NCBI GenBank assembly: GCA_002404095.1
Contig: DHJA01000001.1
Location: forward strand, 1-11,996
Source: Planctomycetaceae bacterium UBA4732
GTDB lineage: Bacteria; Planctomycetota; Planctomycetia; Gemmatales; Gemmataceae
Length of the DNA stretch: 11,996 nt
Direction: 5' to 3'
The position numbers and the translations under genes are program-made. This document shows, piece by piece, positions 1,198-4,660 of this stretch. The notes beneath the pieces were generated by a model, which was not told the DNA's origin, made no database searches, and was given only the letters and a program-made list of their open reading frames with translations. Numbering within the stretch: the stretch's first letter is position 1; each line of letters opens with the position of its first letter.

Positions 1198-2829
1198 ATG
1201 GATTGTGTCGCAACCGACGCCCTACCGCGTACTCTGTCCGCCTGGCCGATGTTTCTCTGGTCGCGCGTCCTCTTCCCCGGCGACCGTCCGGCCGCGGCCG
1301 AGCCGGTTCGCGTCGTCTCGGTCCTTATTCTCCTGTTCGTGCCGGCGTTGCTGCTCTACCCGTGCCTGTCGTTCCCGCTGTTCGAGCCGGATGAGAGCCG
1401 GTATGCGGAGATACCGCGCGAGATGATCCAACACGGCGATTGGATCACGCCTCGCCTTCAGGGTGAACCCTATCTCGAAAAACCGCCGCTGCTCTACTGG
1501 CTCACGGCCGTTAGCTTTCAGCTCTTCGGCGTCCACGATTGGTCCGCCCGCCTACCGCCGGCCTTGGCGGTGCATGGCTGCGTCTTGGCGCTGTACTTCG
1601 TGGGCCGGCGCGGCTTCGGCGAAGCGACGGCGTTTCGCGGCGCCCTGATCCTGAGCCTGGCGCCGGGCTTCATGAGCATCGGCCGACTGCTCATCATCGA
1701 CGGCGTTCTCACGTTCTGTACCACCTTGGCCCTGTTCAGCGCCTTCGAGGCGGTGCGCGGATCGCGCTTGCGCTGGAGCTGGTGGTTGTTGTCTGCCGTC
1801 GCGTGCGGACTCGGCGTTCTCAGCAAAGGCCCTGTCGCGCTCGCGCTGCTGGCGCCGCCGTTGCTGCTGCATCGCTGGCTGACCGGCCGACCGCTGCCGG
1901 TCACGCGCGGCGCCGTTGCCGCTTTCCTCGGCGTCACCATCGGCCTGTCCGTGCCGTGGTACGCGGTGCTGTGCCTACGAGCGCCCGATTTCGCTTACAA
2001 CTTCTTCTGGGAACACAACGTGATGCGCTTTCTGACGCCGTTTGCCCACGAGCGCGGCATCTGGTTCTATGGGCCGGTGCTGCTGCTGGGGCTGCTGCCA
2101 GGCTCTTTGCTGATTTGGCCCTTTCTGCGATTTTTGGGATCGTCTGACGGCGCCATAGCGGCGCGACGACCGGCGGAACTCGGCTTTCTGCTCCTCGCCG
2201 GCGGCTGGTGCGTACTGTTTTTCACGCTGTCGTCGTGCAAGCTGCCGACGTACATCCTGCCGGCCTTCCCGCCGCTGGCCCTCGCCCTCGGCTGGTTCCT
2301 GACCCATAGCGCATGGCGCCGGTCGCGCTGGCCGGGCGTAGTCGCCGTCGCCGCCTTCACGCTGTTAGCCGGCTTCCATCACGTCGCCGAGCCATGGTAC
2401 GCCGCCTACCGTTCGCCCATGCACCGGCCAGAAGAGGTGCGTCGCCTGTGCGCCGACCCATCCGTGCCCGTCGTCTGCTACCCGCGCGATTGCGATTCCG
2501 TCGCCTTCTACCTCGGTCGCGACGATCTACGCAGTTATCGTAGTAAGGACATCGACGAACTCCGTAAATTGGTACGCGCCCAGCCGCGCACCGTGATCCT
2601 CTGCACACATCGGCACTCGCGGCAGCAGCTACACCAGTTACTGCCGCCAGAGGTGCGTATTGTGGAGGAAGTGCATGTCGGCTTGGAGGAATTGCCCGGC
2701 GTACCGGCGTCGCTGCGGAAGGCGCTGACGGTGCTGATGGGCGAGACGGCGCTGGGATTGAGCGATCTGGCGGTGGTGGAATGCGGCTCGCCTGACGCAA
2801 GGCTGATGACGGCGAATGTGCGCAAGTAG
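1198..2829 (+). CDS. ArnT/PMT-like GT39 family membrane glycosyltransferase
   Basis: Predicted polytopic inner-membrane glycosyltransferase that would move a sugar from a polyprenyl-phosphate donor to a lipid or protein acceptor; the actual substrate cannot be read from the sequence. From the start used here (543 aa), a first membrane segment (about 38-60) is followed by the family signature PDESRYAEIPREM (64-76, with the catalytic-type acidic pair D65-E66), GDWITPRLQGEPYLEKPPLLYWL (80-102), SKGP (209-212), FFWEHNVMRF (269-278) and KLPTYILPAFP (348-358), with about ten hydrophobic segments between. After ~395 comes a soluble ~150-residue tail (VVCYPRDCDSVAFYLGRDDL and on) as in ArnT-like proteins. 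ATG 1198 is chosen because GAGG lies 9 nt upstream; GTG 1147 and ATG 1189 are open alternatives. The last codon and stop (AAG TAG) fall inside the left end of the first repeat unit, so the native C-terminus may have been changed by that insertion. Confidence 0.88.
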   Translation: MDCVATDALPRTLSAWPMFLWSRVLFPGDRPAAAEPVRVVSVLILLFVPALLLYPCLSFPLFEPDESRYAEIPREMIQHGDWITPRLQGEPYLEKPPLLYWLTAVSFQLFGVHDWSARLPPALAVHGCVLALYFVGRRGFGEATAFRGALILSLAPGFMSIGRLLIIDGVLTFCTTLALFSAFEAVRGSRLRWSWWLLSAVACGLGVLSKGPVALALLAPPLLLHRWLTGRPLPVTRGAVAAFLGVTIGLSVPWYAVLCLRAPDFAYNFFWEHNVMRFLTPFAHERGIWFYGPVLLLGLLPGSLLIWPFLRFLGSSDGAIAARRPAELGFLLLAGGWCVLFFTLSSCKLPTYILPAFPPLALALGWFLTHSAWRRSRWPGVVAVAAFTLLAGFHHVAEPWYAAYRSPMHRPEEVRRLCADPSVPVVCYPRDCDSVAFYLGRDDLRSYRSKDIDELRKLVRAQPRTVILCTHRHSRQQLHQLLPPEVRIVEEVHVGLEELPGVPASLRKALTVLMGETALGLSDLAVVECGSPDARLMTANVRK

Positions 2830-2977
2830 GGTGCCATGCTTTCGCGGCTTCTGTCCGCACCGTCTGCCCGCTCAAGCCGCCGCGAAAGCATGACTCCCGC
2901 GCGAGGACACATGCTTTCGCGGGGTTGGGACCGGACGAGGTATCGAGACCGGCCCGCGAAAGCATGGCACCCCACTT
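2824..2977 (+). repeat. BIME-like palindromic repeat, unit 1
   Basis: First of five copies. Inverted ends AAGTAGGGTGCC (2824-2835) and GGCACCCCACTT (2966-2977) differ at one position. Inside are four arms: CATGCTTTCGCGGC (2835-2848), GCCGCGAAAGCATG (2879-2892), CATGCTTTCGCGGG (2910-2923) and CCCGCGAAAGCATG (2953-2966). Adjacent arms make two hairpins with loops near 30 nt; outer and inner arms can instead pair as a nested long stem. GTAG at the left and the complement of GTGG at the right fit the GTRG head of REP elements, so the unit looks like two inverted REPs. The GTAG contains the stop codon of the preceding glycosyltransferase gene. Confidence 0.9.
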
Positions 2978-3016
2978 GTGTAGCTACTACTGGGTCTATC
3001 CCGTTGGTATCTACCC
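2978..3016 (+). repeat. 39-bp spacer between repeat units 1 and 2
   Basis: This spacer has exactly the same length as the next one (3170-3208) and shares TATCCC and TGGTATCTA with it at the same offsets. The true repeating period of the left cluster is therefore about 192 bp (unit plus spacer), which suggests the cluster grew by tandem duplication rather than by independent insertions. Confidence 0.7.
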
Positions 3017-3169
3017 AAGTAGGGTGCCATGCTTTCGCGGCCTCTGTCCGCACCGTTTGCCCGCACAAGCCGCCGCGAAAGCATGACTCCCACGCGAGGA
3101 CACATGCTTTCGCGGGGTTGGGACCGGACGAGGTTTTGAACCGGCCCGCGAAAGCATGGCACCCCACTT
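3017..3169 (+). repeat. BIME-like palindromic repeat, unit 2
   Basis: Same architecture and orientation as unit 1. Left end AAGTAGGGTGCC (3017-3028), right end GGCACCCCACTT (3158-3169), core GGGTGCC...GGCACCC 143 bp. The four CATGCTTTCGCGG-type arms are intact, while loops differ from unit 1 at scattered positions (for example CTTGT-like changes in the first loop). The GTRG head is present at both ends. Confidence 0.9.
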
Positions 3170-3208
3170 ATGGTGATACTAACGGATTTATCCCACTGGT
3201 ATCTAACT
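3170..3208 (+). repeat. 39-bp spacer between repeat units 2 and 3
   Basis: Shares GGNTTTATCCC and TGGTATCTA with the spacer at 2978-3016. A related stretch, GGGTTTATCCCGACGGTA (4701-4718), follows the last unit of the right cluster. The spacer family therefore belongs to the repeat rather than to host sequence. Confidence 0.65.
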
Positions 3209-3358
3209 AAGTAGGGTGCCATGCTTTCGCGGCCTCTTTCTACACCTTTCCTCCCTCTGAGCCGCCGCGAAAGCATGACTGCCGCGCGAGGACTCATGCT
3301 TTCGCGGGGTTGGGACTGGACTTCGTCTCGATACCGTCCCGCGAAAGCATGGCACCCC
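3209..3358 (+). repeat. BIME-like palindromic repeat, unit 3
   Basis: Left end AAGTAGGGTGCC (3209-3220) keeps the GTAG head; the right end GGCACCCC (3351-3358) is followed by GGCTCTAG, so the right GTGG head is lost. Core is 144 bp with four intact arms. The first loop is the most diverged of the set (TTTCTACACCTTTCCTCCCT). The unit ends 21 bp from the stop codon of the transposase gene, whose 3' end faces it. Confidence 0.9.
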
Positions 3359-3379
3359 GGCTCTAGTAGATCACCACCT

Positions 3380-3946
3380 TCATCCATCAAGGACCGGCAA
3401 GGGATCCATTCGGAGCGGCTTACCCGGCATCCCTTCGTAAAATCGGGCACTGGACCACGGCCAATCGGTCGGCCGGCTCACTAGGCCGCGCCGTACCGGA
3501 TTCGCGTGGACATACTCAATCATGGTCCGCAACGTGGCGGGGTCGGTGATGTTACGGTCGTAGCCGCCTCCCCGCTGCCAGAAGCGGTAATGCACTTCGC
3601 CGTTGGGCTGTTCGTCTCGCAGGCGGTCGAGGAATTCCGGGGCGTCCCGTCGCAGGAACGCCAGAGCCGCCCGTTGCACGGGAACCTTGAGGGCCGTCCG
3701 GATCAGCCGCACTTCATAGCACGAATCTCGCGGGCGGAGGATGACGTGGACGTGCTCCGGCATGAGGACGTATGCCCAGAGGTCCAGATTCCGCCGCTGT
3801 CGGGCCGACTCCAGGGCTTCGAGGAACCATTGTCGGGAACGATCACGGCTGAAAAGGGGTAAACGGTGGAAGCAGGAGAAGGTTAACTCATGGGCATGGC
3901 CCGGCTCGTTGTAACTTCGGACCTGTTTCCGGTGAAGTGGGTTCAT
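3380..3946 (-). CDS. REP-associated tyrosine transposase (RAYT), Y1_Tnp family
   Basis: 188-aa single-strand DNA transposase of the HUH/Y1 superfamily. The protein opens with a core beta strand (HELTFSCFHRLPLF, 19-32), has the metal-binding HUH motif in LMPEHVHVIL (H65, H67), FWQRGGGYDRNI (122-133) in the place of the FWE region of E. coli TnpA-REP, and EYVHANPVRRGLV (144-156), where Y145 aligns with the catalytic tyrosine (Y115) of the E. coli protein. It ends with DWPWSSARFYEG, typical of RAYTs. Length and all catalytic residues suggest an intact gene. RAYTs are single-copy, domesticated relatives of IS200/IS605 transposases that recognise REP palindromes; here palindromic units lie on both sides (unit 3 is 21 bp past the stop, a single hairpin is 22 bp before the start). 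No TnpB and no IS200-type ends were seen. The ATG at 3946 has no strong Shine-Dalgarno, suggesting weak translation. RAYT class is firm; the link to these repeats is inference. Confidence 0.92.
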   Translation of the reverse strand: MNPLHRKQVRSYNEPGHAHELTFSCFHRLPLFSRDRSRQWFLEALESARQRRNLDLWAYVLMPEHVHVILRPRDSCYEVRLIRTALKVPVQRAALAFLRRDAPEFLDRLRDEQPNGEVHYRFWQRGGGYDRNITDPATLRTMIEYVHANPVRRGLVSRPTDWPWSSARFYEGMPGKPLRMDPLPVLDG

Positions 3947-3968
3947 GGGGATGGGTTCCGGTTATGAA

Positions 3969-4034
3969 AGGCGTCATGCTTTCGCGGCCGGCTTGTCCTG
4001 GGGACAAAGCACCTTGGGCGAAAGCATGGCGCCT
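3969..4034 (+). repeat. Short single-hairpin relative of the repeat arms
   Basis: AGGCGTCATGCTTTCGC (3969-3985) faces GCGAAAGCATGGCGCCT (4018-4034); all but one or two positions pair. The interior holds a second small inverted repeat, CTTGTCC / GGACAAAG. It shares the CATGCTTTCGC arm with the five large units but has only two arms and no GTRG head. It lies just upstream of the RAYT start, so it could be a solo REP form, a regulatory site for that gene, or a decayed copy. Confidence 0.75.
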
Positions 4035-4041
4035 GGCGGCT

Positions 4042-4305
4042 CTACATTTTCGCAAGTGAATCAACTAATTCATCCTCAAACTCAGCGAGGTTGCGTTTTA
4101 CCAGCACGTCCTTTACAGAGGTTTCAAAATCGCATTCTCCCTTTAAAGATATGAATCTTGCCCTAAACTCGTTTCCTTCATTGGTGATGCCGACTAGCAT
4201 TCCTTCGGAGATGATCCTGATTGTGTCACACGGGTCGCTTCGGATGTTCAGGAAAGGAAACCGTTCCTGGATGCGAGAAGCAAGTTCACAAAGTTCTGGT
4301 TTCAT
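4042..4305 (-). CDS. Small hypothetical protein between repeats
   Basis: Not recognised. 87 aa, MKPELCELASRIQERFPFLN to a C-terminus LVDSLAKM, acidic in its second half (FEDELVD), predicted cytoplasmic with no signal peptide or membrane segment. The open frame runs further up to 4410, but that extension is the translation of repeat unit 4, so ATG 4305 is taken as the start; no clear Shine-Dalgarno is visible. The gene fits almost exactly between the short hairpin (ends 4034) and unit 4 (begins 4327). By eye its GC content is about 45 percent, far below its neighbours, which suggests acquisition from elsewhere. Could be an accessory or cargo gene, or a spurious frame; the absence of stops in an AT-richer stretch and the ordinary amino-acid composition favour a real gene. 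Confidence 0.55.
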   Translation of the reverse strand: MKPELCELASRIQERFPFLNIRSDPCDTIRIISEGMLVGITNEGNEFRARFISLKGECDFETSVKDVLVKRNLAEFEDELVDSLAKM

Positions 4306-4326
4306 TGGAGTCTGGTCCCAAACGCA

Positions 4327-4470
4327 GGGTGCCATGCTTTCGCGGCCTCTTTCCGCACCATGCACCCACTCAAGCCGCCGCGAAAGCATGAGACCCACGC
4401 GAGGATTCATGCTTTCGCGGGGTTAGGACAGAACAAAGTTTCGGGACCGGCCCGCGAAAGCATGGCACCC
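4327..4470 (+). repeat. BIME-like palindromic repeat, unit 4
   Basis: 144-bp core with perfect 19-bp inverted ends GGGTGCCATGCTTTCGCGG (4327-4345) and its complement (4452-4470), and two internal arms meeting as CCGCGAAAGCATGA (4379-4392) and TCATGCTTTCGCGG (4407-4420). Same orientation as units 1-3. The bases before the left end are GCAG, not GTAG, and AAAA follows the right end, so the GTRG heads are missing. Confidence 0.9.
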
Positions 4471-4516
4471 AAAACGCCTTGGGGGTTAAGTCATTCCGCT
4501 ATCTGTACCAGTCGTT

Positions 4517-4660
4517 GGGTGCCATGCTTTCGCGGCCTCGGTCTGCACCGTACTCCCACTCAAGCCGCCGCGAAAGCATGATTCCCGCGGGAGGACTCAT
4601 GCTTTCGCGGGGTTGGGACTGGACGAGGTTTCGGGACAGGCCCGCGAAAGCATGGCACCC
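4517..4660 (+). repeat. BIME-like palindromic repeat, unit 5
   Basis: 144-bp core, same orientation, with perfect 19-bp inverted ends (4517-4535 and 4642-4660) and the two internal arms CCGCGAAAGCATGA and TCATGCTTTCGCGG. The linker between the inner arms carries a CCCGCGGG palindrome (4585-4592) not present in the other units. It is preceded by GTTG rather than GTAG. The interval to unit 4 (4471-4516) does not resemble the 39-bp spacers, so units 4 and 5 may have arrived separately. The 74 bp that follow, up to the GspF stop, hold only the spacer-like stretch 4701-4718. Confidence 0.9.

Follow-up and report, generated by a model that had tools for sequence, protein, structure and literature searches.

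The recognition of repetitive extragenic palindromes (REPs) by REP-associated tyrosine transposases (RAYTs) has been elucidated so far for a small number of pairs from Proteobacteria (PMC8266576). As described there, the TnpA_REP proteins of Escherichia coli and of Stenotrophomonas/Marinomonas are HUH/Y1 enzymes whose REP hairpin follows a tetranucleotide guide, or tag, GTAG. The enzyme cuts single-stranded REP via its tyrosine, and the tag guides the choice of the cleaved dinucleotide, with GTAG specifying CT and GTGG specifying CC. In Pseudomonas fluorescens SBW25, inverted REP doublets (REPINs) are described as hairpin-forming, extragenic and close to a RAYT gene, and as occurring in tandem clusters of copies that are nearly identical, flanks included (PMC3116915). 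REPs are known in Planctomycetes as well, with several families in R. baltica (PMC3733652), and class 3 TnpA_Y1 proteins with atypical structures have been found in this phylum (PMC3733652, PMC6006769). Here, a locus from the Gemmataceae member Planctomycetaceae bacterium UBA4732 is described, which lies in a window of 11,996 nucleotides (the whole stretch analyzed; contig DHJA01000001.1, assembly GCA_002404095.1). This locus is very probably a REPtron, in which a single-copy RAYT gene is accompanied by a REP family of its own, organized into REPINs.

The window resembles the systems above in its HUH/Y1 gene, in the hairpins that follow a tetranucleotide, in the inverted extragenic doublets near the RAYT and in the tandem grouping of its units 1 to 3. 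It differs in dimensions and in the tag. The GI 16-mers of SBW25 start 71 bp apart (PMC3116915), whereas the unit in the window measures 144 bp, with loops of 31 to 33 nt and a GTGC tag; and where the proteobacterial guide is GTAG (PMC8266576), the family of the window carries GTGC or GTGG before a CATG stem, as judged from sequence. The features of the locus are as follows.

2829-2972, no strand assigned: REPIN 1, with a GGGTGC tag, two inverted REP hairpins and the tag of the other strand
3022-3164, no strand assigned: REPIN 2, in tandem with REPIN 1 (start-to-start distance 193 bp, flanks included)
3214-3357, no strand assigned: REPIN 3, in tandem (start-to-start distance 192 bp)
3380-3946, minus strand: RAYT gene, 188 amino acids, with H65-V-H67, W123-Q124 and Y145
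~3970-4033, no strand assigned: single hairpin with a REPIN arm (11 paired bases exact), lacking the GTGC tag
4042-4305, minus strand: small open reading frame (ORF), 87 amino acids, between the RAYT gene and REPIN 4
4327-4470, no strand assigned: REPIN 4
4517-4660, no strand assigned: REPIN 5 (start-to-start distance 190 bp from REPIN 4)

An earlier, sequence-only reading of the window had proposed an intact HUH/Y1 transposase (H65-V-H67, Y145) with three palindromic units on one side and a hairpin plus two units on the other, and both proposals were borne out, the latter with mapped coordinates and beyond chance. The protein is matched by the NCBIfam RAYT equivalog NF047646 with 90.5 bits (cut-off 80), and its top structural match is the RAYT-REP complex 4er8; its fold is nearest to that of TnpA_REP; the Pfam model Y1_Tnp scores it below cut-off (18.6 versus 23). 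Across 35 aligned rows Y145 is invariant, and H65 and H67 are nearly so. The curated model, the fold and the catalytic residues confirm that this is a real, intact RAYT of the HUH/Y1 type. Its motif set, EHVH / WQ / YVHANP, is close in outline to that of class 2 TnpA_Y1 and fits no single row of Table 1 of PMC6006769 exactly; it differs, with WQ and YVHANP, from the class 3 motif YV[VI]xEQ. The gene is single-copy in the source genome (protein search, E 0.001). An IS200/IS605 insertion sequence was also considered and was ruled out by the single copy of the transposase gene, in place of several near-identical ones.

The assembly that holds the window (G000, with the window as contig C96) comprises 6.8 Mb in 299 contigs and is 90% complete. 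A genome-wide count, as the sequence-only reading had proposed, gave 150 forward and 151 reverse matches to the 13-base arm CATGCTTTCGCGG, against 0 and 1 for the same pattern read backwards. At four arms per element, these 301 matches, 21 of them in the RAYT locus, correspond to about 75 elements, partial ones included. At least 43 elements are full, which is a lower bound because only 40 of 100 first-look candidates were scored. The architecture was compared in 50 distinct doublets (53 rows), chosen by similarity with two changes per arm tolerated, a choice that favors conserved arms. The order is GGGTGC tag, arm, loop of 31 to 33 nt, arm, spacer, arm, loop of 30 to 34 nt, arm and tag; of the 53 rows, 48 have a spacer of 17 bp between the two REPs, and the tag is present in 49 on one side and in 50 on the other. 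Pairwise identity is 0.994 to 1.00 in the arms, 0.66 and 0.69 in the loops and 0.69 in the spacer, the inner arms being as well conserved as the outer ones. ORFs of at least 360 nt are avoided by 22 of 30 tested elements versus 131 of 1285 random placements.

The 144-bp unit is thus a REPIN, with two inverted REPs, tags outward, conserved ends and a variable interior. Its size and four arms had been noted from the sequence and hold, but the unit is not single: it consists of a pair of ~63-nt hairpins, and its outer arms can also pair with each other. The doublet and the 31- to 33-nt loops likewise explain why it appeared far larger than classical REPs. The canonical GTAG superfamily comprises REPs of 20 to 40 bp preceded by the 5' tetranucleotide GT[AG]G; the REPs of the window, with ~63 nt and GTGC, fall outside on both counts and are filed as tagged RAYT-associated REPs outside that superfamily.

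When one 144-bp element was folded as single-stranded DNA, the two strands gave z values of −9.1 and −10.2, and none of 200 shuffles was as good. In the predicted fold, the two outer arms pair with each other in a nested arrangement. This nesting and the long outer inverted repeat would also suit a miniature inverted-repeat transposable element (MITE) of a DDE transposon that has a RAYT as neighbor by chance. Such an origin is very improbable, although no search was aimed at a DDE element with these ends: the inner arms are conserved like the outer ones, related repeats adjoin HUH genes, and 48 elements gave no sign of a target-site duplication, flank identity exceeding that of shuffled pairings by at most 0.05 at the best-scoring boundary for each length (a huge z at length 4 is an artefact of zero variance among the shuffles). 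Because the arms are invariant, they do not discriminate between nested and side-by-side pairing. In tests that ignore the kinship of copies, pairing above shuffled was found for the spacer ends (p 0.003), for the bases outside the tags (p 0.008 and 0.004 in two comparisons) and, weakly, for the loop ends beside the inner stem (p 0.025); the outer loop ends gave p 0.25, and side-by-side pairing of the loops gave p 0.92 and 0.051. Many copies in the source genome carry CACAAG/CTTGTG-like extensions beyond the tags.

Related planctomycete RAYTs often present the same association. Hairpins adjoin the RAYT in 45 of the 80 loci from named relatives (the top 80 out of 494), which supports the earlier proposal that the gene sits amid its probable REP elements. 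Around these 80 genes, CATG-based hairpins number 142 in the zone up to 500 bp from the RAYT (76.4 kb in total) versus 10 in the zone beyond 1 kb (200.5 kb), a 37 times higher density, and each of 15 other palindromic tetramers gave at most 11 hairpins near the RAYT. At 88 RAYT loci with 135 nearby hairpins, a GTGC or GTGG tag stands on one side of 119 hairpins, on both sides of 4 and on neither side of 12, and tagged hairpins occur at 41 of the 88 loci. In a wider set of 166 nonredundant RAYT loci, 52 carry a tagged CATG REP (37 GTGC, 14 GTGG and 1 mixed), while at the remaining loci the hairpins belong to a different kind or none were found. The REPs of many relatives are 27 to 32 nt long, under a search pattern that permits up to 57 nt. 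The stem sequence tracks the distance between RAYT proteins (Mantel r of 0.33, p 2e-4, n = 51; r of 0.32, n = 41), whereas loop length shows no such tracking (p 0.19). Two further genomes (G030 and G031) also contain four-arm doublets; their spacer measures 16 to 18 bp, and their stems are related or different.

Presence of repeats and RAYTs is also correlated across genomes. Among 95 genomes of the family, a RAYT was detected at E 1e-20 in 6 of the 9 with at least six hairpin-pattern hits versus 5 of the 86 others; at E 1e-12, any RAYT match, several of them distant, was obtained in 8 of the 9 repeat-rich genomes versus 23 of 95 overall. Among 397 genomes of the class, a RAYT was found at E 1e-25 in 23 of 35 with at least five tagged REPs versus 107 of 362 others. 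In this class survey eight candidates were scored per genome, the 35 and the 23 were tallied manually, and the pattern misses the long-loop REPs of the window (3 hits in G000); the RAYT-positive status of two REP-rich genomes, G097 and G270, rests on weak hits (E 3e-26 and 2e-28) with no adjoining CATG REPs.

The most likely explanation of these sequence patterns is a RAYT that copies the hairpin repeats around the genome. The enzyme would bind the REP as a single-stranded hairpin, use the tag on the 5' side of CATG as its guide, nick near the REP via Y145 and then rejoin the ends; cleavage of single-stranded REP by this protein is predicted by analogy. REPINs would spread slowly, with the enzyme holding arms and tags constant.

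Several results weigh against this explanation. No tagged CATG REP lies within 650 bp at 114 of the 166 nonredundant loci, and the stem-protein correlation could arise from linkage alone. The sequence-only reading had held that abundant repeats in relatives without a related RAYT would refute it, and such genomes exist: in G042, 65 hairpin hits contrast with the absence of any RAYT at E 1e-12, and none of the four Y1 genes there has CATG repeats beside it, and the REP-rich G035, G160, G165, G190, G203 and G230 have no RAYT at E 1e-10. These six are part of 12 REP-rich RAYT-negative class genomes; of the 11 re-searched at E 1e-10, the other five gave weak hits, and the twelfth is G042. Only one of the 14 loci inspected in the re-searched genomes, L271, has a tagged CATG hairpin. 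In G028 the RAYT adjoins CATGCCCACGCC repeats and not the 67/67 CATGCTTTCGCGG repeats of that genome, and among the RAYT/Y1 loci inspected in G028, G030, G031, G033 and G034, a subset of those present, none adjoins the CATG repeat type that is abundant in the respective genome. On the enzyme side, the guide-reading R104 of E. coli aligns with T134, and no position beside 110 GTGC/GTGG REPs from 39 loci is fixed for a cleavage dinucleotide. The expectation that repeat number tracks the RAYT therefore holds as an enrichment and fails for the REP-rich, RAYT-negative genomes: the REP-RAYT link is real but loose, and strict one-to-one pairing is disfavored. REP-rich genomes without a detectable RAYT could reflect loss of the RAYT after spread, incomplete assembly or action in trans.

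The persistence of REPs in such genomes would also be expected if the REPINs were relics, or sites used by the host (terminators, nucleoid or gyrase sites) and kept by host selection, beside an idle or repurposed RAYT. The diverged loops, because of which the copies appear old, fit a relic too. This alternative is nonetheless unlikely, since the RAYT is intact with conserved catalytic residues, repeats of matching type cluster at RAYT genes, and a one-sided tag is needless for a terminator or a simple cruciform. The repeats might also have been spread by another or a lost Y1 enzyme, the adjoining RAYT not being the mobilizer. The source genome has ten further Y1 matches, and the abundant repeats of G028 and G030 have another stem type than the repeats beside the best RAYT; however, at the eight other Y1 loci inspected in the source genome the flanking hairpins are different or absent and CATGCTTTCGCGG occurs at none, which makes this origin improbable, more so than host use or relics.

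For a RAYT that mobilizes its REPs, the guide rule predicts that a GTGC tag directs cleavage at GC or GA. In the flanks of the 110 REPs, the strongest position for GTGG is GC at 0.30, seven bases 3', contrary to the rule, and at one 5' position there is a tendency in its favor (GC 0.22 for GTGC and 0.04 for GTGG). Residue 28, which is R28 in the window, is arginine in 35 of 36 GTGC loci versus 5 of 14 GTGG loci, and its association with the fourth tag base (p 7e-6 without a tree) is the best among all columns. The tag changes nine times on either tree; in an underpowered tree-aware test, 2.9 of 5 independent pairs went in the expected direction and 0.2 in the opposite one (median p 0.25), and another run gave 3.1 and 0 pairs. 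Residue 28 sits directly after β-1 (strand 18-25), and in E. coli β-1 is among the regions that contact the tag. The association of R28 with the tag is a lead only. As a tentative extension, the RAYT family may, across Planctomycetota, read a shifted guide, GTGC/GTGG before the CATG stem, switch the fourth base with residue 28, and cleave GTGC REPs at GC/GA instead of CT.

If true, this R28-linked switch would make the family a naturally occurring series of HUH enzymes with reprogrammed guides. Dozens of natural pairs are available in the planctomycete family, in which the stem base stays fixed while the stems vary and the tag takes one of two forms; these variants allow guide reading and RAYT-REP coevolution to be tested in another phylum. 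RAYT/REPIN families also account for many structured intergenic repeats in such genomes. The suggestion that the pair is divergent or undescribed holds for the GTGC tag and not for the pairing, as RAYT/REPIN pairs and the REPs of R. baltica are already known (PMC3733652). The surveys mention variation of the tag at its second and third positions, with GTGG in O. terrae (PMC3733652, PMC6006769); no description of a GTGC-tagged planctomycete family was found in the literature, as far as text passages of these surveys go, with figures and supplements outside the scope. The GTGC tag (versus GT[AG]G) and its candidate link to R28 appear to be new.

The locus is bordered by a mannosyltransferase-like gene (end at 2829) on one side and by a type II secretion F gene on the other. 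The 87-amino-acid ORF at 4042-4305 has no match in Pfam or NCBIfam and none in plasmids. Three identical short-loop REPs of 28 nt with the tag and stem of the window lie elsewhere in G000 (C66:55320, C122:24078 and C165:34096) and may represent a more compact version of the long-loop REP. The REP at L271 (G249, 1502-1527) overlaps the region matched as a distant RAYT and may be an insertion in the gene or at its end. In G028 (L226-L229), CATGCTTTCGCGG hairpins lie within an inverted repeat of ~150 to 180 bp with CTAAATAGCT-like ends and tags on both sides, and a single tagged CATGCTTTCGCGG hairpin of G030 is found ~830 bp away from a Y1 gene (L220). The inspected stretches of G042 show three arms in a doublet-like layout. 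L074 and L194 have hairpins with GTGGCACG, in which CACG replaces CATG at the stem base. The distant RAYT relatives L178, L179, L180, L181, L183 and L195 are accompanied by another short hairpin, CGTTCCCA[GC]GC-3 nt-complement, which flanks the gene on either side in most cases.
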